57,453 nt of DNA from Serinicoccus chungangensis (GTDB lineage: Bacteria; Actinomycetota; Actinomycetes; Actinomycetales; Dermatophilaceae). A program made the translations under genes and the position numbers. The stretch covers positions 70,146-127,598 of the forward strand of contig NZ_LQBL01000029.1 of the NCBI RefSeq assembly GCF_001483745.1. The letters run 5' to 3'. The notes below the pieces were generated by a model. That model was given only the letters and a program-made list of their open reading frames with translations. It had not been told where the DNA came from and made no database searches. Shown here piece after piece: positions 3,424-35,956 of the stretch (positions are counted from its first letter, which is position 1; each line of letters starts with the position of its first letter).

Positions 3424-4788
3424 TCAGTCGCCGGTGGCGATGAAGACGGTCTTGGTCTCGGTGAAGGCGTCCAGCGCGTGCGGGCCGAGCTCGCGGCCGA
3501 GCCCGGACTGCCCGAAGCCTCCGAAGGGGGTGTTGTACCGGACGGAGGCGTGGCTGTTGACGGCGAGGTTGCCCGCCTCCAGCCGGCGGGCGACCCGCAG
3601 CGCCCGTCCCACGTCGCGCGTCCAGATGGAGCCGGCGAGCCCGTAGGCCGTGTCGTTGGCGATCCGCAGCGCGTCCTCCTCGTCGCGGAACGGCAGCACC
3701 GAGATCACCGGCCCGAAGATCTCCTCGGTGAAGGCGGGGTCGTCCTCGGCGCGGGTCCGCAGCACGGTGGGCGGGTGCCAGAAGCCGGGACCCTCCGGGG
3801 CGCTGCCCTGGATGAGTACCTCGGCGTCGCGGACGTAGCCCGCGACCGTGTCCCGCTGGCCCGCGGAGATGAGCGGGCCCATACCGCTCGCGGCCTCACC
3901 CGGTGGTCCGCACACGAAGCCGTGCACCGCGGGCTCGAGCCGCACCAGGAAGGCGTCGAGCACCTCGGCCTGCACGAGCAGCCGCGACCGGGCGCAGCAG
4001 TCCTGGCCGGCGTTGTCGAAGGCCCCGCCGGGCGCCGCCGCGGCGGCCGCGTCGAGGTCGGCGTCGGCGAAGACGATGTTGGCGTTCTTCCCGCCGAGCT
4101 CCAGGGTCACCCGCTTGACCTGGTCGGCGCACCCGGCCATGACCCGCTTGCCGACGGCCGTCGAGCCGGTGAAGACCACCTTGCGGACGAGCGGGTGGGT
4201 GACGAAGCGCTCGCCGACGACCGACCCGGCGCCGGGGAGCACCTGGAGCACGCCCTCGGGGATCCCGGCCTCCAGGGCCAGCTCGGCCAGCCGCATCGCG
4301 GTGAGCGGGGTCAGCTCGGCGGGCTTGAGGACCACGGTGTTGCCGGCGGCGAGCGCGGGTCCGATCGCCCACCCGGCGATCGGCATGGGGAAGTTCCACG
4401 GCACGATGACCCCCACCACCCCGAGCGGCTCGGCGAAGGTCATGGCCACACCGCCGTCCACCGGGATGGTCTCGCCGCCGGGCCGCTCCGGCGCCCCGGC
4501 GTAGTAGGCCAGCACGTCGCGGACGTTGCCCGCCTCCCAGCGCGCGTTGCCGATGGTGTGCCCGGCGTTGGCGACCTCCAGGCGGGCCAGCTCCTCGACG
4601 TGCTCGTCGACCACGGCGGCGAAGCGCCGCAGGAGCCGGGCCCGGTCGGCGGGGCTCACCTCGCGCCAGGTCTGGTAGGCCCGGTGGGCCGCCTCGACGG
4701 CGGCGTCGGTCCGCTCCTCGTCGGCGAGCTCGAGGGTGGTGATGACCTCCTCGGTGGCCGGGTCGACGACGTCGGTGGTGGTGCTCAT
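3424..4788 (-). CDS. NAD(P)-dependent aldehyde dehydrogenase
   Basis: 454-residue ALDH superfamily enzyme. Key parts: VVPWNFP near 130, the glutamate motif LELGGKNANIVFADADLD, and the catalytic cysteine in FDNAGQDCCARS. The fold continues to a normal C-terminus with FGGFGQSGLGRELG. Its start overlaps the stop of the upstream hydrolase gene by 4 bases. In related pathways (PuuC-type) this step oxidises the gamma-glutamyl aldehyde after deamination of the glutamylated amine. That role here is inferred from the neighbours. Confidence 0.9.
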   Translation of the reverse strand: MSTTTDVVDPATEEVITTLELADEERTDAAVEAAHRAYQTWREVSPADRARLLRRFAAVVDEHVEELARLEVANAGHTIGNARWEAGNVRDVLAYYAGAPERPGGETIPVDGGVAMTFAEPLGVVGVIVPWNFPMPIAGWAIGPALAAGNTVVLKPAELTPLTAMRLAELALEAGIPEGVLQVLPGAGSVVGERFVTHPLVRKVVFTGSTAVGKRVMAGCADQVKRVTLELGGKNANIVFADADLDAAAAAAPGGAFDNAGQDCCARSRLLVQAEVLDAFLVRLEPAVHGFVCGPPGEAASGMGPLISAGQRDTVAGYVRDAEVLIQGSAPEGPGFWHPPTVLRTRAEDDPAFTEEIFGPVISVLPFRDEEDALRIANDTAYGLAGSIWTRDVGRALRVARRLEAGNLAVNSHASVRYNTPFGGFGQSGLGRELGPHALDAFTETKTVFIATGD

Positions 4789-12172: not shown

Positions 12173-13430
12173 GCAGGAGCAGCTGGTCCACGCCCATCCG
12201 ACCCGCCGCGAAGGTCCAGGCCGCGCCCGCGAGGTAGAGCTCCCAGACCCGGGTGACCTCCTCCCCGACGAGGCGGGCGACGTCCTCGCGCCGACGCCGC
12301 AGCCGCTCCTCCCAGGAGCGGATCGTCCAGACGTAGTGCTCGCGCAGCGCCTCGACCCCGCGCAGCTCCAGCCCGGCCCGCTCCAGCAGCTGCACGGTCG
12401 CGCCGACCGGACGCATCGACATGTCCGGGGCGATGAACGACTCGATGAACGGGCCCCCACCGGGGTTGCGGCCCGGCCGGCTCATCTGCTGCACGAGCAC
12501 GGGTGCGCCCGGGGCGGCCAGCCGGTGCAGCGTCGCGGCGTACGTCGCGTAGTTGCGGTCGCCCACGTGCTCGCCCATCTCGATCGAGGCCACGGCGTCG
12601 AAGCCGGACTCCGGCACCTCCCGGTAGTCCTGCAGCCGCACGTCGACCAGGTCGCTCACCCCCTGCTCCCCGGCCCGGGCCTGCACGAAGGCCTGCTGCT
12701 CCCGGCTGATGGTGACCGCGGTGACCCGCGCGCCGTGCTCGCGGGCGGCGTGCAGGGTGAGCGAGCCCCAGCCGCACCCGACGTCGGCCAGCCGCTGGTC
12801 CGGCCGGGTGTGCAGGCCCAGTTTGCGGCAGACCAGCTCCAGCTTGTCCGACTGCGCCTGCTCGAGGGTGTATGCCGCGTCCTCCCGGCCGCCGAGCAGG
12901 TCCGCCCCGTCGGCGGTGACGTAGGCGCAGGAGTAGGCCATCTGCGCGTCCAGGACGAGCTCGTAGAAGTCGTTGGACAGGTCGTAGTGGTGGCTGATCG
13001 CCGCCCGGTCGCGGGTCAGGCTGTGCAGGCGTCCCCGGACGACCGCCTGGGAGGCCGGTGCCGCGGGTGGCCGCCCGATGAGGCCGAGGTCCTTGGCGAG
13101 CAGGCCCAGCCCGGCGACCGCCCGGGCCCGCTCGGCCGGGGTCGGCCGGGGGGCGCGGCGCGCGAGCTCGTCCCGGACCTGGGTGAGGGCCACGCCGAGC
13201 TCACCGTCCACGAGGACCTCGCCGGTGACGAAGGCCTGGGCGGCGCCGAGCTCACCCGGCGCCCAGAGCAGCCGCCGCAGGGCCTGGGGGCTGGTCAGCC
13301 GCACCGTCGGGTGGGACCCCGGGTCGGCCCCCGCCGTCGACCCGTCCCAGGCGACGAGGTGGACCGGCAGCGGGCCACCGGCCAGCGGCTCGAGCAGGGT
13401 GGTCAGACGGGGGGCGACGGGGGAGGGCAT
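12156..13430 (-). CDS. cyclopropane-fatty-acyl-phospholipid synthase family methyltransferase (first copy)
   Basis: 424 residues. CFA/MMA-type SAM-dependent lipid methyltransferase. The N-terminal domain (about 1-130) is the lipid-binding cap. ISHHYDLSNDFYELVLD and MAYSCAYV mark the entry to the catalytic fold, the SAM loop is ADVGCGWGSLTLH, and QDYREVP and IEMGEHVG follow. These enzymes add a methyl or methylene group to double bonds of membrane phospholipid acyl chains. It is divergent from the sigma-factor gene, and a second homolog is at 18340. The two are clearly not recent duplicates. Confidence 0.87.
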   Translation of the reverse strand: MPSPVAPRLTTLLEPLAGGPLPVHLVAWDGSTAGADPGSHPTVRLTSPQALRRLLWAPGELGAAQAFVTGEVLVDGELGVALTQVRDELARRAPRPTPAERARAVAGLGLLAKDLGLIGRPPAAPASQAVVRGRLHSLTRDRAAISHHYDLSNDFYELVLDAQMAYSCAYVTADGADLLGGREDAAYTLEQAQSDKLELVCRKLGLHTRPDQRLADVGCGWGSLTLHAAREHGARVTAVTISREQQAFVQARAGEQGVSDLVDVRLQDYREVPESGFDAVASIEMGEHVGDRNYATYAATLHRLAAPGAPVLVQQMSRPGRNPGGGPFIESFIAPDMSMRPVGATVQLLERAGLELRGVEALREHYVWTIRSWEERLRRRREDVARLVGEEVTRVWELYLAGAAWTFAAGRMGVDQLLLRRPGG

Positions 13431-26304: not shown

Positions 26305-29007
26305 TCAGAGACCGTCGACGCGGCTCTCCGGAGCGGTGAGGTCCGGGTTGGCCCGGAGGTAGTCGACCAGGTTGGCCAGGTCCTCGGGGCCGCCGACGAG
26401 GTCGGTGCCCTCGGTGAACGCGGTGAAGCTGTCGCCGCCCTGCTGGAGGAAGTTCAGGGTGGAGACCCGGTAGGTCTCGTCCATCTCCAGCGCGACGCCG
26501 TCCAGCGCCATGTCGCTCACCTTGCCGCCCTCGGGCTGGCTGTCGTCCCAGGTGTAGGTGAAGCCCTCCGAGACGCCCAGCGCGAGGTACTGGCGGCCAC
26601 GGTCGGGGACGTACTGCTGCTCGAGCACGGCCTTGATCTGCTCACCCGTCATGTCGATCGAGACGATGATGTTGCCGAACGGCATGACGTTGTAGGCCTC
26701 CTGGTAGGTGACCTCGCCCGCCTCCTCGTCGTTGCTGATCTGGTCGACGAGCAGGCTCGCGCGCACCCCGCCGACATTCATGAAGGAGATCTGCGCCCCG
26801 CCCTCGTCGTCGCCGTCGGTGCCGGCGAGGATCGAGTCGGCGACCAGGTTGGCCATCGGGGTCTCGATGCCGCGGTCGCCACCGGCGTCACCGGTGATGT
26901 CCTCGGCGACGGTGCCGACGACCTCGCCCGCCAGGACCTCGGCCCGGGCGACCCACGTGTCGACGACCTCGGCCATCTCCGGGTCGTCCGCGATGGACTG
27001 CAGCACCAGGTGGTTGTCGGCGTAGGCCCGGTCGCGGGTCACGTCGCCGGAGCTGCGGGAGATGGTGAGCGCGGTCTCGGTGACCACGCGGCCGTACTGG
27101 TTGGCGCTGGTCACCAGGCGGTCGGCACCGGCCGGGTCCGGGATGGAGCAGACGTAGGGCTGGTGGGTGTGACCGGTGACCACGGCGTCGATGGCCGGGT
27201 CGAGGTTCTCGGCGATCTCGACGACCGGCCCGGAGATGCCCTCGCACTGGTCGTAGGTGCCGGTCTGGTAGCCGCCCTCGTGCAGCAGCACGACGATCGA
27301 CTCGACGCCCTGCTCCCGCAGCTGCGCGGCCTGGGCGTTGGCGGTCTCGACCTCGTCGAGGAAGTCGACGCTCGCGACCCCGCCGGGGCTGACCAGCGTC
27401 GGGGTCTCCTCGAGGGTCATGCCGATGAAGCCGACGTCCACGCCGTCGACGGTGCGGACCTCGGTCGCGGGCAGGATGGACTCGCCCGTCTCCTTGTCCA
27501 CGACGTTGGCCGCGAGCCACTGGAAGTCGGCCCCGTCGTAGGGCTCGTCACCGAAGCAGCCCCGCTCGGGGTGGCAGCCGCCCTCCTGCATCCGCAGGAG
27601 CTCGTCCACGCCCTCGTCGAACTCGTGGTTGCCGACGCCGGAGATGTCCAGGCCCGCGACCTCCAGGGTCTCGACCGACGGCTCGTCCTGGAAGAGACCG
27701 GACACGAACGTCGACCCGCCGATGAGGTCGCCCGCCGCCACCGTCAGCGTCTGGTCCTCGAAGGACCGGGTCCGCAGCGCGTCCAGCGTCGAGCTGAGGT
27801 TGACCGCACCGCCGACGAGGTTCTGGTCGGGGTCCTGCTCCTCGTCGAGCGTCCCGTCCTCCTCCTCGATGTGTCCGTGGTAGTCGTTGAACGAGAGCAT
27901 CTGCACGACGAGCTCGTCGACCCAGACGGGCAGCCACGTCTCGAGGGGCGTCGCCACCCCCGCGTCGGAGAGGGCTCCCTCGCCGCCGAAGAGCACCATG
28001 CCCTGGGGGGAGATCCGGTCGAGCGCGCCGACCGTGGGTGCGGGCACCTCGGTGGCGCGGCTCAGCAGGAGCGGACCGCCGTAGTAGGCGGCCAGCGCCC
28101 CACCGGTGAGGGCGTCCGGGTAGTCCTGCCCGCTGGCGAGGTAGGACACCGAGTCGAACTCGTAGGAGGAGGCCAGGGCGACGGCGGTCTCGTAGCGGTT
28201 GGCGCCGAAGACCCGGGTCGTGTCGGGCACCAGGGCCGTGACCGCCTCCACGACGTCGTCGGAGACGGCGCCGGACCCCCCGAGCACGACGACCGACTGG
28301 GGCTGCAGCGCGGCGATCGCCTCGGCCGTGCTGGCGCGCAGCTCGTCCGGGTCGGTGAGCAGCAGGGGGGCGCCGTCACGCCCGGCGCGCGCCCCACCGG
28401 TGAGGGCGTCCGGGAAGTCGGTGCCGGTCGCGAGGTAGAGGACCGGGAGGCCGCTGGGGAAGAGCGCGGCGATCTCGGCGGAGGTGTCGTACCGGTTCTC
28501 GCCCGAGACGCGCACCACCTCGGCGCCGAAGCCCTCGAGCTGGGTCTCGACCTCGTCGGAGACGGCCACGGTGCCGCCGACGACGATGATCTGGCTCGGC
28601 GCCAGGTCGCTCAGCGCCTCGGCGGTCGCCTCGGGCAGGGTGTCCTGCTTGGTCAGCAGCATCGGCACCGGCAGGCCGGCGGCCTCGGCGTTGTCCGGGC
28701 GGGACATCCCGCCGGCGGCGCCGGCGGAGCCCGACGGCATCTGCGCGCTGAGCGCGTCCGGGAAGGACTGCCCGGAGGCGATGACCACGGTGCCCGTCGC
28801 CTCCTCGGGGAAGGCACGGGCGATCTCGGCGGCGGTCTCGTAGCGGTCGGCGCCCGCGATGCGGTGCACCTGGGTGGGGTCATCGATCTCCGGGGCCGCG
28901 GGCAGGCTGGGCGCGCTCGTCGCGGCGGCGGCACCGCCACCGACGAGGGCGACCGCTGCGCCGACGGCCACGAGGCCACGACGTGCGGAAGGGGTTTGGG
29001 GGGACAT
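26305..29007 (-). CDS. cell-wall-anchored 5'-nucleotidase/metallophosphatase with three CWB2 repeats
   Basis: About 900 residues. After a signal peptide (Ala-rich, ending near residue 35) come three cell-wall-binding type 2 repeats (about 40-340; each opens with a VxRxxGxxRYxTA-like stretch such as VHRIAGADRYETAAEIA and contains FPDAL). A calcineurin-like phosphatase domain (LSFNDYHGH, GNHEFDEG, GHTHQPYV) and a C-terminal 5'-nucleotidase domain (PFGNIIVSIDMTG) follow. Secreted enzymes of this type release phosphate from nucleotides or UDP-sugars. I start at 29007, where GAGGAGA lies 9-10 bases upstream; in-frame ATGs at 29025 and 29079 are less likely. Confidence 0.87.
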   Translation of the reverse strand: MSPQTPSARRGLVAVGAAVALVGGGAAAATSAPSLPAAPEIDDPTQVHRIAGADRYETAAEIARAFPEEATGTVVIASGQSFPDALSAQMPSGSAGAAGGMSRPDNAEAAGLPVPMLLTKQDTLPEATAEALSDLAPSQIIVVGGTVAVSDEVETQLEGFGAEVVRVSGENRYDTSAEIAALFPSGLPVLYLATGTDFPDALTGGARAGRDGAPLLLTDPDELRASTAEAIAALQPQSVVVLGGSGAVSDDVVEAVTALVPDTTRVFGANRYETAVALASSYEFDSVSYLASGQDYPDALTGGALAAYYGGPLLLSRATEVPAPTVGALDRISPQGMVLFGGEGALSDAGVATPLETWLPVWVDELVVQMLSFNDYHGHIEEEDGTLDEEQDPDQNLVGGAVNLSSTLDALRTRSFEDQTLTVAAGDLIGGSTFVSGLFQDEPSVETLEVAGLDISGVGNHEFDEGVDELLRMQEGGCHPERGCFGDEPYDGADFQWLAANVVDKETGESILPATEVRTVDGVDVGFIGMTLEETPTLVSPGGVASVDFLDEVETANAQAAQLREQGVESIVVLLHEGGYQTGTYDQCEGISGPVVEIAENLDPAIDAVVTGHTHQPYVCSIPDPAGADRLVTSANQYGRVVTETALTISRSSGDVTRDRAYADNHLVLQSIADDPEMAEVVDTWVARAEVLAGEVVGTVAEDITGDAGGDRGIETPMANLVADSILAGTDGDDEGGAQISFMNVGGVRASLLVDQISNDEEAGEVTYQEAYNVMPFGNIIVSIDMTGEQIKAVLEQQYVPDRGRQYLALGVSEGFTYTWDDSQPEGGKVSDMALDGVALEMDETYRVSTLNFLQQGGDSFTAFTEGTDLVGGPEDLANLVDYLRANPDLTAPESRVDGL

Positions 29008-29254
29008 GCGTGGTGTTCTCCTCATGAGGGTGTCCGTCGCAGGTTCCTCGGCGAACCCGCCGGAAGCAACGTAGCCCATCGTCGCCCGCCCGCACCCGAC
29101 GAGAAGGTCACGGTCTGGTGAACCCGAGAAGGCTCGCGGGGTGCACCCGTGGTGCGCAAGGGAATGGTGTGGTCAGTGAGGACTCTGGGGGCGCGCGGAT
29201 GACGACTTGGTAAAGAAGGGCTGGTGAGGGGTACCGCGGGCGGCGCGGGCCACG

Positions 29255-29362: not shown

Positions 29363-31225
29363 ATGGCAGGCACAGGGGGACGACGTCGGGGTGGGGTCCG
29401 CCTGCTCGTGACGACGATGCTGACCGGGGCGCTCGCGCTCTCCTGCTCGGTGGCGGTCGCCGACGAGGAGACGAGCACCGATCCCGCCGCCCCGGTCGCC
29501 GCGGGCGCGGAGCGCACCGGGGGTGCGGGCGACGGGCACGACCACACCGGTGACGCCGACCCGCCCGCCGACGGCGCCTCGGGGGACGGCACCCAGGGCA
29601 CCGGCGCCCCGACCGCCCCCGCCCCGGGCGGCGGGGGGTACTCGCACAGCGGGTCGCCCGCCGGGCCGGCGAGCTTCGTGCAGTTGCCGGAGGACCCCGC
29701 CTATCCCGTCCCCGGGCCCCCGCAGAACGACGACCTGCCGGTCGAGGTCGACGAGGACACGGCATACCAGAACCAGCTGTCCTGCGACCCCGAGGACCGT
29801 CCGGGCGTCATCGCCTTCGCGCTCCTCCTCACCGAGCACTACGGCCGCCCGGGGTGGACCGGTGCGCGCCCGTGCATCGACTACATGAGCCAGCACCACG
29901 ACGGCCGTGCCCTGGACTGGCAGCTGGACGCCTTCGACCCGCACGAGCGTCGGATCGGGGACGCCGCCGTGGCCTGGCTGACCGAGGACGACGGCGAGAT
30001 GATGCGCCGCTTCGGCATCGAGTACATCATCTGGAACGGCCTCGTCTTCATGAAGGACGACAACGAGTGGCGGCACTACGTCGGCCCCAGCCCGCACACC
30101 GACCACGTGCACCTGTCCTTCACCTGGGACGGCGCGATGATGCGGACCTCCTGGTGGACCGGTGTCGCGGTGACCCGGCCCGACCTCGGGCCGTGCGACA
30201 CCGTCACGCGGGAGTACGCCGCGCTGCACACCTTCCCCCGGTTCGAGCCGTGCGCCGACCCGGCCGTGGCCGCCCCCGCGAGCGACCTCGCGCGGGTGCG
30301 TCCCGGTGAGTCGGGGCCGGGGGTGTCGATGCTGCAGACCGTCCTCGGCATCGAGCCCACCGGGGTCCTGGACGCGCCCACCCGCACCGCCCTCGTCGAG
30401 TGGCAGACCGAGCACGAGCTGCCGGCGACCGGCGTCGCGGACGCCCTGACCTACGCCGCGGCCCAGGGGTGGGACCTGGACGAGGTCCCGGCCTCGGCGC
30501 TCTCGGTCACCCCCGAGGACTGGCAGGTCTCGCAGTTCACCCCCTACCGGCGCACCACCGTGACCCAGGGCGACCAGGGCAAGGCCGTCACGGTGCTCCA
30601 GGAGGCCCTGGGCGCCGAGCCCGACGGGGACTTCGGGCCGAAGACCGCCGAGGCGCTGGCGGAGTGGGAGCAGACCGTCCCGGTGCTCGCCGAGCAGGCC
30701 GAGCGGCGGGGTGACGAGCCCGCCGTGGTGACCCCGCTGACCTGGGTCTACCTCGAGCGGGCGGCGCACCCGACCATGGCGCTGCGCGACGTCGAGCTCG
30801 CCGAGGGCAGCCGCGACATCGGCGCGGACCCGGACGGCGAGCTCGCCGCCCGCGCCGCGGTCGAGGGTCGTGACGACAGCCCCTACGCCGGCGGCGCGGT
30901 GGCCGTGCTCCAGGAGCTGCTCGGTGTCGAGGCCGACGGCAGCTTCGGCCCGCTGACCGCGCAGGCCGTCCGCGAGGTCCAGGAGGACGCTGGGCTCGAG
31001 GCGACCGGCGAGGTCGACGGCCCCACCTGGGTCGCGGTCGAGGCGGCGGCCATCGACGCCGAGCGCGTGGCGGGTGCCCCCGGCCTGGAGGCGCAGCGCG
31101 CCCGCGAGGAGGCCGCGAAGGAGAAGGAGCGCCAGGAGGAGAAGCGTCAGGAGCGTGAGGCCGAGCTGGAGCGGCAGCGCGCCCGGGAGCGGCACGAGGC
31201 GGCCGTCGAGGACGCCGGCCGTTGA
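29363..31225 (+). CDS. secreted peptidoglycan-binding cell-wall hydrolase-like protein
   Basis: 620 residues. A signal peptide (about 1-33) is followed by a Gly/Pro/Asp-rich region. A domain at about 135-270 has HHDGRALDWQLD and HTDHVHLSF, the paired His/Asp motifs of LAS/ARB_07466-type zinc D,D-peptidase relatives. Three peptidoglycan-binding type 1 domains follow (about 312-372, 395-450, 508-560; e.g. DGDFGPKTAEALAEW and ADGSFGPLTAQAVREVQ). A highly charged Glu/Arg helix, probably coiled coil, ends the protein (about 565-620). The next gene starts 16 bases later. Confidence 0.8.
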   Translation: MAGTGGRRRGGVRLLVTTMLTGALALSCSVAVADEETSTDPAAPVAAGAERTGGAGDGHDHTGDADPPADGASGDGTQGTGAPTAPAPGGGGYSHSGSPAGPASFVQLPEDPAYPVPGPPQNDDLPVEVDEDTAYQNQLSCDPEDRPGVIAFALLLTEHYGRPGWTGARPCIDYMSQHHDGRALDWQLDAFDPHERRIGDAAVAWLTEDDGEMMRRFGIEYIIWNGLVFMKDDNEWRHYVGPSPHTDHVHLSFTWDGAMMRTSWWTGVAVTRPDLGPCDTVTREYAALHTFPRFEPCADPAVAAPASDLARVRPGESGPGVSMLQTVLGIEPTGVLDAPTRTALVEWQTEHELPATGVADALTYAAAQGWDLDEVPASALSVTPEDWQVSQFTPYRRTTVTQGDQGKAVTVLQEALGAEPDGDFGPKTAEALAEWEQTVPVLAEQAERRGDEPAVVTPLTWVYLERAAHPTMALRDVELAEGSRDIGADPDGELAARAAVEGRDDSPYAGGAVAVLQELLGVEADGSFGPLTAQAVREVQEDAGLEATGEVDGPTWVAVEAAAIDAERVAGAPGLEAQRAREEAAKEKERQEEKRQEREAELERQRARERHEAAVEDAGR

Positions 31226-31241
31226 CCGGCCCCTCCCGCGG

Positions 31242-32771
31242 ATGAGCCACCCACGTCGACGTCGCGGCGGCGCTGTCCTGGCCTCCGCACTGCTCGTGGG
31301 GATCCTGGGCGCGGGCGGTCTCGGCGTGGTGGCGACCTCGGCGGCGGACCCCGGGGCGGAGGGGGAGCCCGGCTGGTCGCAGGTGCAGGCGGCCACCCCG
31401 GGAGCGGTCGGGTGGTCCGGCCTGGGGCAGGCCCCCTGCCCGGAGGGCATGACGCGGCGCGTGAGCGTGGGCAGCTGGAGCATGGACTCGGCCGTCCCGC
31501 AGGCGCGGTTCAACGACGGCTGGGGCCGGGTGTCCTCCCGCGACGGCGGGGCCGCCTGGGCGGTGGTGTCCGCCGCCGACCCGAGCGACCACTTCTTCCT
31601 GCCCTACGTCAAGGTCTCCGTCGACCGTCGCACCATGCTCGCCCTGTCCACCCGCGGCACCCAGGGCAACTCGGCGCACACCCGCGTCCAGATGAACTCC
31701 GTGGACCTGCGGGTCTACGCCGGGTCGTCCTGGGACGGCCGGGTCTACGACGTCACCGCCGCCACGGACGACGAGAACGGCCACCTCGGCACGTGGTTCG
31801 AGCACACGAGCCGCGACGGGGCGAGCACCCGCTGGGACGTCGACAACGTCCAGGTCTACACCTGCCGGGACGCGCCGGTCTCCCGCATCTCCGGCTCGGA
31901 CCGGTATGCCTCCGCCGCCCGCATCGCGGCGACGTACCCGGCCGGGGTGCCGGTCGCCTACCTCGCGACGGGGGAGAACTTCCCCGACGCCATCGGCGCC
32001 TCGGCGCTGGCGGCCCAGCGGGACGCGCCCGTGCTGCTCACCCGCTCGGACCGCCTGCCCGGCGCGACCGCGGCCCAGCTGGACCGGCTCTCGCCGCAGC
32101 GCCTCGTGGTGCTCGGCGGCACGGGCGCGGTCAGCTCGACGGTCGCCCAGGAGGCCGGGGCCTACGCCGGCACGACGAGCCGGGTGACCGGCGCCACCCG
32201 CTACGACGTCTCGGCGGCGCTCGCCGAGACCTACGCCCCGGGCCGGCCGGTCCTCTACGTCGCCAGCGGCGCCAACTTCCCCGACGCCCTGGCCATCGGT
32301 GCCCTGGCGGGCGACCAGGGGGCCCCGGTGCTGCTCACGCCGACCGGGGGGCTGCACCCGGCGGTGGAGGAGCAGATCGGCCGGCTCGACCCGGGCCGCA
32401 TCGTCGTGGTCGGTGGCCCGGTCGCGGTCTCCGACACCGTGGTCGGCCAGCTGCGCCGGCACACCTCGGGCTCGGTGACCCGCCTCACCGGCAGCAACCG
32501 GTATGCCGTGGCCGCCGCCGTCGCCCGCCAGTTCGACGAGGAGCCCGCGCGCGTCTACGTCGCCACCGGCACCGCGTTCCCGGACGCCCTCGTGGGCGCC
32601 GCGCGCGCAGGCAGCCAGGGGGTGCCGGTGGTCCTCACCCGGCAGGACCAGCTCGTCAGCGACGCCCGGTCGGCCCTGCAGGCGCTGGACCCGCTGCGGG
32701 GGGTCCTGCTGGGCGGGCAGGTCGCGCTGAGCTCGGTCGTCATGGACCAGGTCGGCGCGCAGGTCGGGTGA
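31242..32771 (+). CDS. secreted protein with three C-terminal CWB2 cell-wall-binding repeats
   Basis: 509 residues, starting at the ATG at 31242. A signal peptide (about 8-36) precedes an unrecognised beta-rich domain (about 45-210) with conserved-looking Trp and Asp residues. Three CWB2 repeats follow (about 215-505), each with the ISGSDRYASAARIAA-like opening and FPDAL/FPDAI core. CWB2 repeats bind anionic cell-wall polymers. It may be the first gene of the MauE/MauD-like operon, since the next gene begins 9 bases on with a good ribosome site overlapping this stop. Confidence 0.82.
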   Translation: MSHPRRRRGGAVLASALLVGILGAGGLGVVATSAADPGAEGEPGWSQVQAATPGAVGWSGLGQAPCPEGMTRRVSVGSWSMDSAVPQARFNDGWGRVSSRDGGAAWAVVSAADPSDHFFLPYVKVSVDRRTMLALSTRGTQGNSAHTRVQMNSVDLRVYAGSSWDGRVYDVTAATDDENGHLGTWFEHTSRDGASTRWDVDNVQVYTCRDAPVSRISGSDRYASAARIAATYPAGVPVAYLATGENFPDAIGASALAAQRDAPVLLTRSDRLPGATAAQLDRLSPQRLVVLGGTGAVSSTVAQEAGAYAGTTSRVTGATRYDVSAALAETYAPGRPVLYVASGANFPDALAIGALAGDQGAPVLLTPTGGLHPAVEEQIGRLDPGRIVVVGGPVAVSDTVVGQLRRHTSGSVTRLTGSNRYAVAAAVARQFDEEPARVYVATGTAFPDALVGAARAGSQGVPVVLTRQDQLVSDARSALQALDPLRGVLLGGQVALSSVVMDQVGAQVG

Positions 32772-32780
32772 GGAGGACCC

Positions 32781-33494
32781 ATGCAGACCACGCACCGACT
32801 GCTCTCCGGTGAGGGGGTCCTCGTCGACGTGCCCGACGCCACCGCCCTGCCGGGTGGCACGGCGCTGGCGGTCCTGGCCCTGGAGGGCGCCGGCCAGCTG
32901 GAGGTCACCTCCGGCACCGAGGCGGACCTCGGCTTCTACCTCGAGGTGACCGGGACCACCCTGCAGCGGGAGGTGGCGCTGCGCGACGGCCGGTCGCTGC
33001 GCTACGGCCGCCTCGGCGGCGACCCGGAGCAGGGGCTGGGCTGGTCGGTCGCGGTCGGGGCCCACCACGTCTACGGCTCGACCGTCCCGGCCATGGACGT
33101 CGAGGCCCTCAGCGGCTACCTCGCCGACGTGGACGTCCGGGAGGACCGGCTGGGACCGGTGCTGACCCCCACCGGCCGGGCCAGCTGGTCGCCCTACCGC
33201 ACGCAGACCCTCGCCCAGGTGGTCGAGCTGGCCGGGACCGGCGGCGGCGACGGTTCGCCCCCGGGCTACCTGCTCGACATCCGGCGGGCCCGCACCGGTC
33301 AGCTGCAGGGCGGGCGCTCCTCCGGCGCACCCGTGCGGGGCGGGCTGCTGTCGCGGTCCTCGGGCGAGGAGCGGCACCCCTACGCCGTCCTCGAGAGCGC
33401 CGACTTCGTGACCTACGGCATGCCGGGCAGCGAGGAGGCCGTCGACGCGGTCATCGCCTCGATGACCGAGGTCACCGTGGGGCTGGTCCGGTGA
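32781..33494 (+). CDS. hypothetical protein, first gene of the MauE/MauD-like cluster
   Basis: 237 residues, ATG with GAGGAGGA just upstream. It has no signal peptide or membrane segment. The sequence is predicted mostly beta in the first half, with a Gly/Ser-rich region (about 150-200) and a short helical end. I do not recognise the family, and it is not a MauB-type beta-propeller, which would be much longer. Its stop overlaps the start of the MauE-like gene by 4 bases, so it is likely to work with that membrane protein and thioredoxin. Confidence 0.65.
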   Translation: MQTTHRLLSGEGVLVDVPDATALPGGTALAVLALEGAGQLEVTSGTEADLGFYLEVTGTTLQREVALRDGRSLRYGRLGGDPEQGLGWSVAVGAHHVYGSTVPAMDVEALSGYLADVDVREDRLGPVLTPTGRASWSPYRTQTLAQVVELAGTGGGDGSPPGYLLDIRRARTGQLQGGRSSGAPVRGGLLSRSSGEERHPYAVLESADFVTYGMPGSEEAVDAVIASMTEVTVGLVR

Positions 33495-34063
33495 GCGTGC
33501 TCGCGGCGGCCGGCCTGTGGGCCGTCGGCCTCGTGCTGCTCGTCTCGGGGCTGTCGCACGCGCGGGCGCCCCGGTCGACGCGGGTGGCGCTGCGGGCCCA
33601 CGGCACGCTCCCGCCCGCCGCCCACCGGGGGGTGGCTCTCGTGCTGGGCCCCGTCGAGCTCGTGCTGGCCCTGGGCCTGCTCGCGGGCGGGCTGGGCGTG
33701 CTCGACGCTGCGGCGGTGCGAGCCCTGGGTCTGGGCGCCGCCCTGCTCTGCCTGGCCTTCGCGGCCTACCTCCGGGTGGTGCGGCGGCGCACCGCCGGGC
33801 AGGAGGTCCCCTGCGGCTGCGGCCTCGGCACCACCCCGGTCACCGGCTGGAGCGTGGTGCGGGCCGGGTTGCTGGGTGCCCTGGCGCTCACGGGTGCGGC
33901 CCTGCCGACCGGTCCGTGGGACGCCGGCACCGGCGCGCCGGTCTGGGCACAGGTCGTCGTGGCCGCCGCCGGCGGGCTGGCGCTCGCCGTGGCCACGGCC
34001 GCGCTGCCCGCCGCGCGCGCCGTCCCCGCCGGGCTCACCACCCTCACCGGGGCGGCGCGATGA
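33491..34063 (+). CDS. MauE/DoxX family redox-associated membrane protein
   Basis: 190 residues, GTG start, five hydrophobic segments. The motif EVPCGCGLG (about 99-107) is the CGC signature of MauE-type proteins, which help form disulfides in the methylamine dehydrogenase light chain. It is coupled by 4-base overlaps to the gene before and the MauD-like gene after. Methylamine metabolism is not implied: no large-subunit gene is visible. Confidence 0.8.
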   Translation: MSVLAAAGLWAVGLVLLVSGLSHARAPRSTRVALRAHGTLPPAAHRGVALVLGPVELVLALGLLAGGLGVLDAAAVRALGLGAALLCLAFAAYLRVVRRRTAGQEVPCGCGLGTTPVTGWSVVRAGLLGALALTGAALPTGPWDAGTGAPVWAQVVVAAAGGLALAVATAALPAARAVPAGLTTLTGAAR

Positions 34064-34653
34064 GCTTCACCGCCTCCGCCCTGGTGCTCGCCTTCGTCGC
34101 CATCGCCCTCCTGGCGCTGGGGCTGGCCGGGCTGCTGCGGCAGGTCAGCCTCCTCACCCAGCAGCTCGAGGGCGGCGCGGCGGCACCGCGCCAGGGCGCC
34201 GGGGCACGGACCACCCGCGAGCTGGTGGGCTTCCGGCTACCGGGTGATCTGGCGACCGATCTCGTCGACCCGGCCGCACGGCATACCCTCCTGGCCTTCG
34301 TCTCGCCCGGGTGCAGCTCGTGCTCGCTCACCCTGCGCGCGCTCGCCCTGGACCCTGAGGTCGCGGACGGGTCGGTGGCACTGACCCTCGTCTCCGCGGG
34401 CTCCTGCGCACCCGCCCTCCGGGACGCCGAGGGGGCCGGGCGGCTGCGCTGCCTGCCGCAGGGCCGGACGGCGATGGACCGGCTGGCCGTCCCGGCCACC
34501 CCCTACCTCGCGCTGCTCGACGCCTCGGGCACCCTCCGGGCGGCTCTCCTGCCCGAGGAGGACACCGACCTGGGCGGCTGGCTCCGCCAGGCCGACACGA
34601 CGCTTCACCAGGCCGGGGCACGACCGTCGACGAGGGAGGACGGCCCGTCATGA
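34060..34653 (+). CDS. MauD-like membrane-anchored thioredoxin-fold protein
   Basis: 197 residues. One N-terminal membrane anchor (about 6-27) precedes an extracytoplasmic thioredoxin-like domain. The active site is FVSPGCSSCS (CSSC, about 84-93), and the cis-Pro loop is VPATPYLALLD. Two further Cys (SAGSCAP and LRCLP) could form a second disulfide. MauD acts on disulfides of the periplasmic methylamine dehydrogenase light chain. The natural substrate here is probably the 10-cysteine Tat protein encoded next, with which it overlaps by 4 bases. Confidence 0.8.
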   Translation: MSFTASALVLAFVAIALLALGLAGLLRQVSLLTQQLEGGAAAPRQGAGARTTRELVGFRLPGDLATDLVDPAARHTLLAFVSPGCSSCSLTLRALALDPEVADGSVALTLVSAGSCAPALRDAEGAGRLRCLPQGRTAMDRLAVPATPYLALLDASGTLRAALLPEEDTDLGGWLRQADTTLHQAGARPSTREDGPS

Positions 34654-35162
34654 TGCGCTTCGAGGACCTGCCGGTGGCCGACACCGGCCGGCTGCGGGAC
34701 CGGCTGCGGGAGAGCCCCAGCCGGCGCGGCTTCCTGGCCCGCGTGCTGGGGGCGGGCACGGCGGTCGGTGTCGGGTCGCTGGCGCTGGTCAACCGCGGGG
34801 GCAGCCAGGTGCGGGCCCAGGCCGCCTACTTCCTGGACTACACCGACACCTCGACCGGGCCGTGCGCCACCTACGCCCGCGACCACACCGAGAACGGCAT
34901 CCAGTGCGGTCCCTCGCCCATGTGCCGTGACGGGTCCTGCTGCTGGAAGTACCGCTCCGGCGCCGGCAACGTCGTGGCCTGGCACAAGAACGGACCGGGC
35001 GTCGACCGCTACTACACCCACCGGCCGGACGACTGCTGGGGCGGCGTCTACGACTCCTGGCACTGGAAGTTCAGCGACGGCCGGACCTACCGCTGCTCCG
35101 ACGGCTGGACCTGCTCCGGCTCCGGCTCCTGCGTCGCGACGATCTGCCCGTGGGCGATCTAG
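34650..35162 (+). CDS. Tat-exported Cys/Trp-rich protein resembling a methylamine dehydrogenase light chain
   Basis: 170 residues. SRRGFL (24-29) and the following hydrophobic stretch form a twin-arginine signal, so the protein should be exported folded. The mature part (about 58-170) has ten Cys (72, 86, 92, 97, 98, 129, 149, 155, 161, 166) and seven Trp (99, 111, 130, 137, 139, 153, 168). CATYARDH and the late GRTYRCSDG recall the Cys-rich light chain of methylamine dehydrogenase, whose two Trp make the TTQ cofactor, but identity looks low. Upstream MauE- and MauD-like genes support a disulfide-matured product. No Trp pair can be assigned as a cofactor from sequence alone. Confidence 0.72.
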   Translation: MMRFEDLPVADTGRLRDRLRESPSRRGFLARVLGAGTAVGVGSLALVNRGGSQVRAQAAYFLDYTDTSTGPCATYARDHTENGIQCGPSPMCRDGSCCWKYRSGAGNVVAWHKNGPGVDRYYTHRPDDCWGGVYDSWHWKFSDGRTYRCSDGWTCSGSGSCVATICPWAI

Positions 35163-35956
35163 AGGACCCGGACCTGCCGGTCGTGGCGGACGCCGCGACC
35201 GGGGTCTCCGCGCGTCGCCGCTGGGCCGCCGACCCGTTGCCGCTGCTGCTGCTCCTCGGGGCCGGCGGGCTGGCCTGCCTGCTGCTGCTCCCGGTGTCCG
35301 GACCGACGTGGGTCGTCCCGGCCCTCTTCGCGGTGACCGTGGCCGGGGTGGCGCTCTCCGGCTCCACCTGAGGCGTCAACAGCGCGTGGGCGCTGGTGGC
35401 CTCGGTCCGGGGCCGACAACGACAGCTCTCCCTCTGGGGAGCCTTCGCCGCCGGGACGACCCTCGGCGGTGCGACCACCGGGCTGGCCCTCGGTGTGCTG
35501 GCCGGGCTGGTCAGCCCGGTGCCCGAGCAGGTGCGCCTGGTGCTGCTGGTCGTGCTCGTCCTGGCCCTGGTGGTGCTCGACGCGCTCACGCCCCGGCTGC
35601 CGCTGCCGCAGCGCTCGATCCTCATCCCGCAGGAGGTCTTCGCCCGGGGCATGGCCCGCGGCGGGCTGCGCTTCGGCCTGGAGTACGGCTGCGGGTGGCG
35701 GACCCTCGTGCCGTCGGCCGCGGCATACCTCGCTGCGCTGTTCGTCCTGCTCGTCGTGCCGCCGTGGTGGGTCGCCGTCCTCCTGGGCGCGGCCTTCGGC
35801 CTCTCCCGGTCCTGGGCGGTCCTGCTCTGGATCGGCCTGGGGTCACCCGGGTGGCAGACCTTCCTGGCCGGGCACTCGCGCGTCCTCGAACGGACCGGCA
35901 GCGTCCTCGCCGGGCTGCTGCTGCTCGCGGCGGCCTGGTCGCGGCTGGGCGGATAG
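35150..35956 (+). pseudogene. polytopic membrane protein gene interrupted by one in-frame UGA
   Basis: GTG at 35150, overlapping the Cys-rich gene by 13 bases. One frame runs to 35956 with a single UGA at 35369-35371 (codon 74), read ...VALSGST-stop-GVNSAWALVAS.... Both sides are membrane segments, about six in all, so this is one gene split in place. The C-terminal part holds FGLEYGCGWRTLVPS, and a MauF/DsbD-like role is possible but unproven. The UGA may be a TGG or TGC that mutated or was misread, a real truncation, or less likely a selenocysteine codon: a 6-bp stem with loop GTGG starts 8 bases after it. If only the second half is made, an in-frame GTG at 35396 could start it. Confidence 0.65.

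Follow-up and report, generated by a model that had tools for sequence, protein, structure and literature searches.

A candidate selenoprotein family in a MauE/MauD-type gene cassette of Serinicoccus chungangensis

What is the function of MauE- and MauD-type proteins encoded next to a Cys-rich exported protein, and why is the membrane protein gene that closes such a cassette interrupted by an in-frame UGA? We address these questions for a five-gene cassette at positions 32781..35956 of a 57,453-nt window (the whole stretch of DNA analysed) from Serinicoccus chungangensis (GCF_001483745.1, NZ_LQBL01000029.1). The genes lie head to tail and encode, in this order, a soluble protein of no recognised family (U237), a MauE-type protein, a MauD-like thioredoxin, a Cys-rich protein with a twin-arginine translocation (Tat) signal, and a hydrophobic membrane protein; their coordinates and successive overlaps of 4, 4, 4, and 13 nt agree with an earlier, sequence-only reading of this DNA. 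That reading passed over the UGA of the fifth gene unremarked, and therefore the nature of the system is read differently here: judging from sequence comparisons, the cassette is quite probably an extracytoplasmic disulfide-maturation module built on a new selenoprotein family, with a cell-wall client.

Conservation of the in-frame UGA and the hairpin that follows it

The fifth frame (GTG at 35150 to 35956) is interrupted by TGA at 35369-35371, and for this reason mechanical calling of open reading frames (ORFs) splits the gene, listing 35396-35956. In 15 other loci of the genus and five loci from other families of the class, TGA follows LSGST or LSGSV, and the frame then remains open for 190-194 residues. 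A profile of the membrane protein (A1, built without L036, whose automatic start lies too far upstream) matched 16 of 394 genomes of the class, 31 of 120 genomes of one family, and two of 121 of another; these sets overlap, and every place matched was fetched. TGA occupies a single alignment column in 56 of the 58 aligned relatives, in the context SG-S-[T/V]-U-xxNS, where U denotes selenocysteine (Sec). The remaining two represent a divergent form, with WSPUG (TGA) in L111 and WSPCG (TGC) in L110. Position U74 is the only invariant Cys/Sec position of both the 20-row and the 37-row alignments. The genome search tolerates any stop codon; the stops listed were TGA, once accompanied by a TAG.

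A wider profile (A4, made from the window and 36 of the 58 places) detected the family, Sec and Cys forms together, in 39 of the 246 genomes of a phylum sample. Among the 19 loci fetched from this sample, 14 contain WSPUG or YSPUG (TGA) and five, WSPCG (TGC), so that the 21 members of the WSP[U/C]G branch read at the site comprise 15 with UGA and six with Cys (L110, L147, L155, L156, L157, L159), the latter having TGC at the equivalent of residue 74 in an unbroken frame. Cys forms occur only in this divergent branch, with none in the SG-S-x-U branch. Comparison of A1 with a profile of 17 of the 21 WSP members (A8) yielded a probability of 99.1 (E 4.7e-19), Sec74 being aligned on the Cys of WSPCG. 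In some genomes the membrane selenoprotein gene is present in two copies (L100 in G217, and G078, G186, G469, G495); those of L100 lie within about 5 kb.

A bacterial Sec insertion sequence (SECIS) is described, in the part of PMC1088965 available, as a hairpin directly after the UGA with a G in a small apical loop. A hairpin with GGU in its loop can be folded directly 3' of the UGA, the GGU starting 29-33 nt past it in 57 of 58 Sec forms (AGU in L100b); L104 and L100b were anchored by hand, L110 was omitted, and these counts cover the Sec forms collected outside the phylum sample. Of 406 stem pairs over 58 sequences, counted in two registers assigned by group, 395 are standard. For the 28 distinct hairpins of the larger group, in one register, 95.5% of cells are paired (77.1 +/- 2.0 after shuffling; 0/500), the covariation is 0.588 (0.258; 0/500), 33 cells are changed on both sides (12.1 +/- 2.3; 0/500), six pairs show a double change (4.1; 3/500), and 13 further pair types occur (10.4; 9/500), the contrast with shuffled sets being inflated by related sequences. 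Sliding the partner strand lowers pairing to 36-57%, a comparison in which the unslid version is favoured by deriving the structure from the sequences themselves.

The synonymous variation points the same way. In 15 genus sequences (the window and 14 others, without L036), 62 of 756 codon pairs differ synonymously over ten columns from U+2, with zero differences at six of those codons and the next two, compared to 171/1334 over U+1 to U+16, 1610/3895 before the UGA, and 4811/12022 from U+17. For five distant sequences, the contrasting figures are 27/114 and 381/919. In L110, a Cys form, GGU is missing and the hairpin is degenerate. By these sequence patterns, the hairpin is under selection, and the UGA at 35369-35371 almost certainly encodes Sec, insertion itself being what we infer from the alignments, the Cys counterparts and the decoding machinery described below.

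Selenocysteine decoding in genomes with the cassette

The window's genome contains tRNA-SeC (UCA), then selA (389 bits, cut-off 268), selB (250, cut-off 242), and selD (364, cut-off 125), as scored with NCBIfam models. The SelB model was rejected as a presence/absence marker, as it gave a signal in 38 of 38 genomes (eight over the cut-off), mostly from other GTPases, and tRNA-Sec was used for this reason. In the genus, tRNA-Sec (>60 bits) is found in all 16 genomes with the cassette vs. four of eight without it (p 0.007; here and below, p-values ignore relatedness). In the class sample, where tRNA-Sec occurs in 101 of 394 genomes, it is present in 15/15 genomes with the TGA form vs. 86/379 others (p 6e-10), and G144, with a non-TGA form, does not have it. 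In the phylum sample taken together with G288 and G144, 15/15 TGA genomes read at the site have tRNA-Sec vs. one of six Cys genomes (p 3e-4). This test covers the genomes read: 16 of the 30 phylum genomes flagged as TGA-form (own genome aside) were unread at the site and kept out of it, and the unread no-TGA genomes G707, G781, and G819 were left out of the tally. With the tool-flagged TGA genomes added, the counts are 28/31 vs. 1/6.

The tRNA gene is also physically linked to the cassette in a part of the loci. Of the 57 fetched stretches (9-20 kb), 15 include tRNA-SeC, compared with 0.27 expected at random placement in 3.5-Mb genomes, although these 15 loci are not independent because several come from close relatives (L103, L123, L124; L105, L107) and four genomes contribute two loci. 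In G016, tRNA-SeC (L041:3549-3643) and a SelB-like match lie a few kb upstream of the cassette.

Of the 16 genus genomes with the cassette, nine encode Sec-containing formate dehydrogenase (with TGA inside). It was not found in the other seven (the window's genome, G007, G011, G012, G016, G018, G022), which have only a 115-122-bit relative without TGA. All four genus genomes with tRNA-Sec and without the cassette (G014, G017, G020, G023) encode this dehydrogenase; thus, each of the 20 tRNA-Sec genomes of the genus has at least one of the two, cassette or dehydrogenase. G005 (84% complete) contains dehydrogenase pieces with TGA and has no tRNA-Sec over the cut-off. In seven of 16 genomes, the cassette therefore seems to be the only Sec use found, formate dehydrogenase being the one other Sec protein searched for, and the membrane protein offers a concrete client for Sec decoding there. 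The few Sec-using organisms without known selenoproteins have been ascribed mostly to incomplete genomes, new selenoproteins not being excluded, in the available part of PMC5029168.

Relatives and partners of the membrane protein

Members of the CcdA/DsbD family are reductive, partnered with an extracytoplasmic thioredoxin, and carry electrons by a Cys pair. In Pfam scans up to E 10, DsbD_2 matches eight of 17 WSP[U/C]G members and DsbD_TM, four of 17. In single scans of all 21 members, four reach a gathering score for PF02683 or PF13386: L142 passes both DsbD_2 and DsbD_TM (29.7 and 27.6 bits), L143 and L145 reach the DsbD_2 score, and L146 reaches that of DsbD_TM, being equal to the cut-off; the matches of L142 and L146 span the motif Cys/Sec. 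By this similarity, the WSP branch is one of CcdA/DsbD-type membrane electron carriers, and because of these matches the membrane protein of the cassette is read as a remote carrier of the same type, so that the candidate selenoprotein is, judging from its relatives, probably a redox carrier. The adjoining membrane-anchored thioredoxin adds to the likeness, whereas Sec in place of Cys, the single conserved chalcogen, a window protein below detection, and a Cys-rich Tat partner set the cassette apart from known CcdA/DsbD systems. TsoB (NF045694), a rhodanese/DsbD fusion-like selenoprotein listed in Table 1 of PMC13188914, likewise has Sec in a DsbD-like context, but contains UxxxxU, that is, two Sec, and a rhodanese part. 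An NCBIfam scan of 37 members gave no selenoprotein model among the families listed, only scattered weak matches; Pfam offered nothing beyond the DsbD similarity, and comparison of the membrane protein with PDB sequences gave one chance match (E 1.2) or none.

The gene order U237-MauE-MauD-Cys-rich-membrane is kept in each of the 15 further cassette loci of the genus that were fetched, and the order MauE-MauD-Cys-rich-membrane, in five loci from other families of the class (L042-L046). The five-gene arrangement is not due to chance. The MauE assignment with its EVPCGCGLG motif holds up, PF07291 scoring over the cut-off. For the proposed MauD-type thioredoxin, the CSSC motif and a remote likeness stand, and the TIGR02661 score is far below the equivalog cut-off (Table 1). 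Profiles detected MauD in 20/20 first loci, 28/37 further loci (on the opposite strand in L110), and 16/19 phylum-sample loci, and a CxxC thioredoxin-like ORF is readable in L101, L106, L125, and L134, where the MauD profile missed. Cys85 and Cys88 of the MauD-like protein are invariant in 16 rows; profile A3 omits L030, L036, L038, L039, and L046. MauE was detected in 20/20 first and 16/37 further loci and hence is not a constant member. The MauE of L031 (8629-9197) and the MauD of L046 (5917-6513) are each split across two frames, by a frameshift or an assembly error.

The fourth protein, described earlier as Tat-exported with 10 Cys, is confirmed as such, with TIGR01409 just over the cut-off. 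Residues C72, C86, C98, C129, C149, C166, W137, and W139 are invariant in 21 rows. A homologue (by either of two profiles, with at least four Cys, adjacency to the membrane gene not being required) is present in 54 of 55 SG-S-x-U loci, L134 being the exception. The sequence-only notion of a conserved redox cassette is thus largely upheld for the Cys-rich and MauD-like proteins, and not for MauE in the added loci. A direct search found the Cys-rich protein in 16 of 38 genomes, all within the window's genus (24 genomes); marginal matches in G157 and G353 were discarded, having no cassette mates alongside, a plasmid search gave no match, and three loci of a named collection are from Serinicoccus. 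The Cys-rich profiles matched none of the 21 WSP loci; by eye, five of 20 inspected (L146, L148, L155, L158, L159) contain ORFs with 10-26 Cys and RR motifs. Beside the WSPUG forms, L146:2271-3068 (-) and L148:54-692 encode exported-looking proteins with 26 and 22 Cys, respectively, and no Pfam match. In L155 (G699, a Cys form), a single ORF joins a CxxC thioredoxin-like part and a Cys-rich Tat part.

Of 21 Cys-rich proteins scanned, those of L045 and L046 carry fused peptidoglycan-binding domains, L135 being similar by appearance, and the CWB2 protein gene lies directly before U237 in 15/15 other genus loci; these fusions and this upstream neighbour point to the cell wall. Against PDB sequences, the Cys-rich proteins gave the peptidoglycan-binding parts plus weak matches (E 0.04 and worse).

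We propose that the UGA would be read as Sec with the aid of the downstream SECIS hairpin, and that the product would be a transmembrane carrier, distantly of the CcdA/DsbD type, in which a single chalcogen is conserved. This residue, Sec74, would accept reducing equivalents from the cytoplasm, probably from thioredoxin, and the electrons would cross the membrane to the CSSC of the MauD-like thioredoxin, with MauE, where present, as a second membrane redox partner. MauD would then reshuffle the disulfides of the Tat-exported Cys-rich protein, which may act in or at the cell wall; that this protein is the client of the MauD-like thioredoxin appears fairly likely from the gene context. Since one chalcogen is conserved, the carrier probably acts by forming mixed selenosulfides with the thiols of its partners. 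The direction of electron flow, the order of the partners, and the identity of the client are what we infer. More tentatively, and with somewhat less than an even chance, such a Sec-dependent oxidative-folding pathway (Sec-CcdA-like, MauE, MauD-like), serving a dedicated cell-wall protein, may be widespread in Actinomycetota and chiefly explain why Sec decoding is kept there, in some genomes entirely.

Several observations weigh against this account. The window membrane protein has no match to PF02683 or PF13386 in Pfam scans, the DsbD link running via the WSP branch; in that branch, 17 of the 21 members score below both DsbD cut-offs, and the L143 match leaves out the motif Cys, starting past it. 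The membrane protein has one conserved chalcogen and not two conserved Cys. AlphaFold models for the family, from the window and L017-L019, were unusable, with predicted local distance difference test (pLDDT) values of 45.5 and 34.6. Among the added loci, MauE was undetected in 21/37 and MauD, in 9/37. Three flagged TGA-form genomes (G623, G745, G752, in 220-280 contigs) gave no tRNA-Sec, and the Cys-form genome G699 has it. Finally, synonymous diversity per ten columns is also lowish at the start of the gene (0.18) and at U+82 (0.19), vs. 0.08 at the hairpin.

If the account is true, a widespread selenoprotein family is to be added to those known, one whose genes would be cut in two at the UGA by automatic gene calling. 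Selenium would then serve thiol transfer across a membrane and disulfide maturation in nature, and the Cys forms that also exist would allow a comparison.

Alternative readings, known systems, and the surroundings of the cassette

According to PMC7794033, citing van der Palen 1997, there is speculation that MauE helps to form the disulfides of the methylamine dehydrogenase (MADH) beta subunit, and the function of MauD is called unclear. The cassette resembles mau clusters in having MauE by Pfam, a MauD-like protein and a Cys-rich exported substrate, and differs from them in that it has no MADH light chain by Pfam, a MauD far below the equivalog cut-off, and an added selenoprotein. The light-chain model PF02975 had no match among 10 Cys-rich proteins at E values of 10 or less, nor among 21 at E values of 5 or less; mauB gave no match in 38 genomes, in a search whose positive control was likewise without signal.

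Clusters with mauE/mauD and Cys-rich precursors have already been noticed in Streptomyces and taken as candidates for ribosomally synthesized and post-translationally modified peptides (RiPPs): the available text of PMC7794033 describes three candidate families with mauE, one of them also with mauD, and predicted precursors with at least eight Cys. By analogy, the Cys-rich protein could be a precursor of the RiPP kind, and the cassette would supply the enzymes that modify it. The shared MauE, the MauD of one family, and the high Cys content fit, but the precursors there are treated as peptides, and the main text has no word starting with "selen". The protein considered here has a Tat signal, more than 100 further residues with many conserved positions and, in L045 and L046, peptidoglycan-binding fusions, and in these respects it resembles a secreted protein rather than the precursor of a peptide. 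We regard the RiPP reading as unlikely, and it is in part compatible with disulfide maturation, as the two can overlap.

It is distinctly unlikely that the membrane selenoprotein is a YeeE/YedE-like transporter or sensor of selenium or sulphur species. A hydrophobic membrane protein with a single conserved chalcogen would suit such a role, a YeeE/YedE selenoprotein appears in Table 1 of PMC13188914, and sel genes sometimes adjoin the cassette; however, Sulf_transp (PF04143) is not among the families listed for 20 A1 or 17 A8 members, the WSP branch matches DsbD families instead, and the genes found beside it are usually those of a thioredoxin and an exported Cys-rich protein.

The sequence-only reading had suggested that the exported protein might bear a Trp-derived cofactor for electron transfer or catalysis. 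This suggestion found no support, the sole hint being the conserved W-x-W: besides the invariance of W137 and W139 in 21 rows, the motif is present in nine of nine further Cys-rich proteins aligned. The lack of a PF02975 match and of any recognised Trp-modifying enzyme in the cassette (mauG was not searched for) makes it very unlikely.

That the UGA is an ordinary stop, yielding a 73-aa membrane protein and, by re-initiation, a separate C-terminal membrane protein, is hardly credible: although TGA is the usual terminator (it ends 52 of the 59 other cassette genes counted in the genus loci) and a GTG follows soon after it, at 35396, six relatives have Cys in its place in an unbroken frame, the conserved residues NS resume directly past it, the genome search for read-through listed TGA stops (one with an extra TAG), and the hairpin and both the association and the linkage with tRNA-Sec speak against termination.

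Returning to the selenoprotein reading, Table 1 of PMC13188914, a 2026 inventory of 119 selenoprotein families, includes, by the names and motifs given, neither a MauE/MauD-linked nor an SG-S-x-U family, sequences not having been compared individually. No report of the family was found in the literature searched, which included PMC5029168, PMC9312934, PMC5330540, and PMC2474590 and extended neither to subscription papers nor to preprints.

Table 1. Positions of the cassette genes and associated elements in the window, with the basis of each assignment.
Feature	Position	Strand	Basis
CWB2 cell-wall-binding-repeat protein, directly upstream of U237	31074..32771	+	PF04122 E 1.8e-50; longest ORF, true start maybe further in
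U237, 237-aa soluble protein of no recognised family	32781..33494	+	Pfam, NCBIfam scans
MauE membrane protein, motif EVPCGCGLG	33491..34063	+	PF07291 E 5.9e-17, 62.6 bits, cut-off 27
MauD-like membrane-anchored thioredoxin, CSSC	34060..34653	+	18.4 bits with TIGR02661, under the cut-off of 188.6
Tat-exported Cys-rich protein, 10 Cys, presumed cassette product	34650..35162	+	17.1 bits with the Tat signal model TIGR01409 (cut-off 16.7)
Selenoprotein candidate, hydrophobic multi-span membrane protein, GTG start	35150..35956	+	TGA-as-residue translation, hydropathy, relatives
In-frame UGA, proposed Sec codon, residue 74	35369..35371	+	Alignment column and Cys counterparts in relatives
SECIS-like hairpin, loop GGU 32 nt after UGA	35397..35415	+	Pairing, covariation, low synonymous diversity

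The first protein of the cassette, U237, has no Pfam match up to E 1, and its only NCBIfam match is UreE (E 0.19). Its homologues occupy the equivalent position in the 15 other genus loci and are weakly detected (E 2e-5 to 6e-4) in L113, L114, L117, and L135.

Proteins of the cell-wall type are also seen around the cassette. In the window, it is preceded by three large ones, at 26305-29079 (-), 29363-31225 (+), and 31074-32771 (+). In L135, two ORFs with peptidoglycan-binding-like repeats (3904-4752 and 12221-13090) flank it. Upstream of the cassette, seven of the 15 genus loci have a peptidase-like protein bearing peptidoglycan-binding repeats; in the others it is located elsewhere or was not found.

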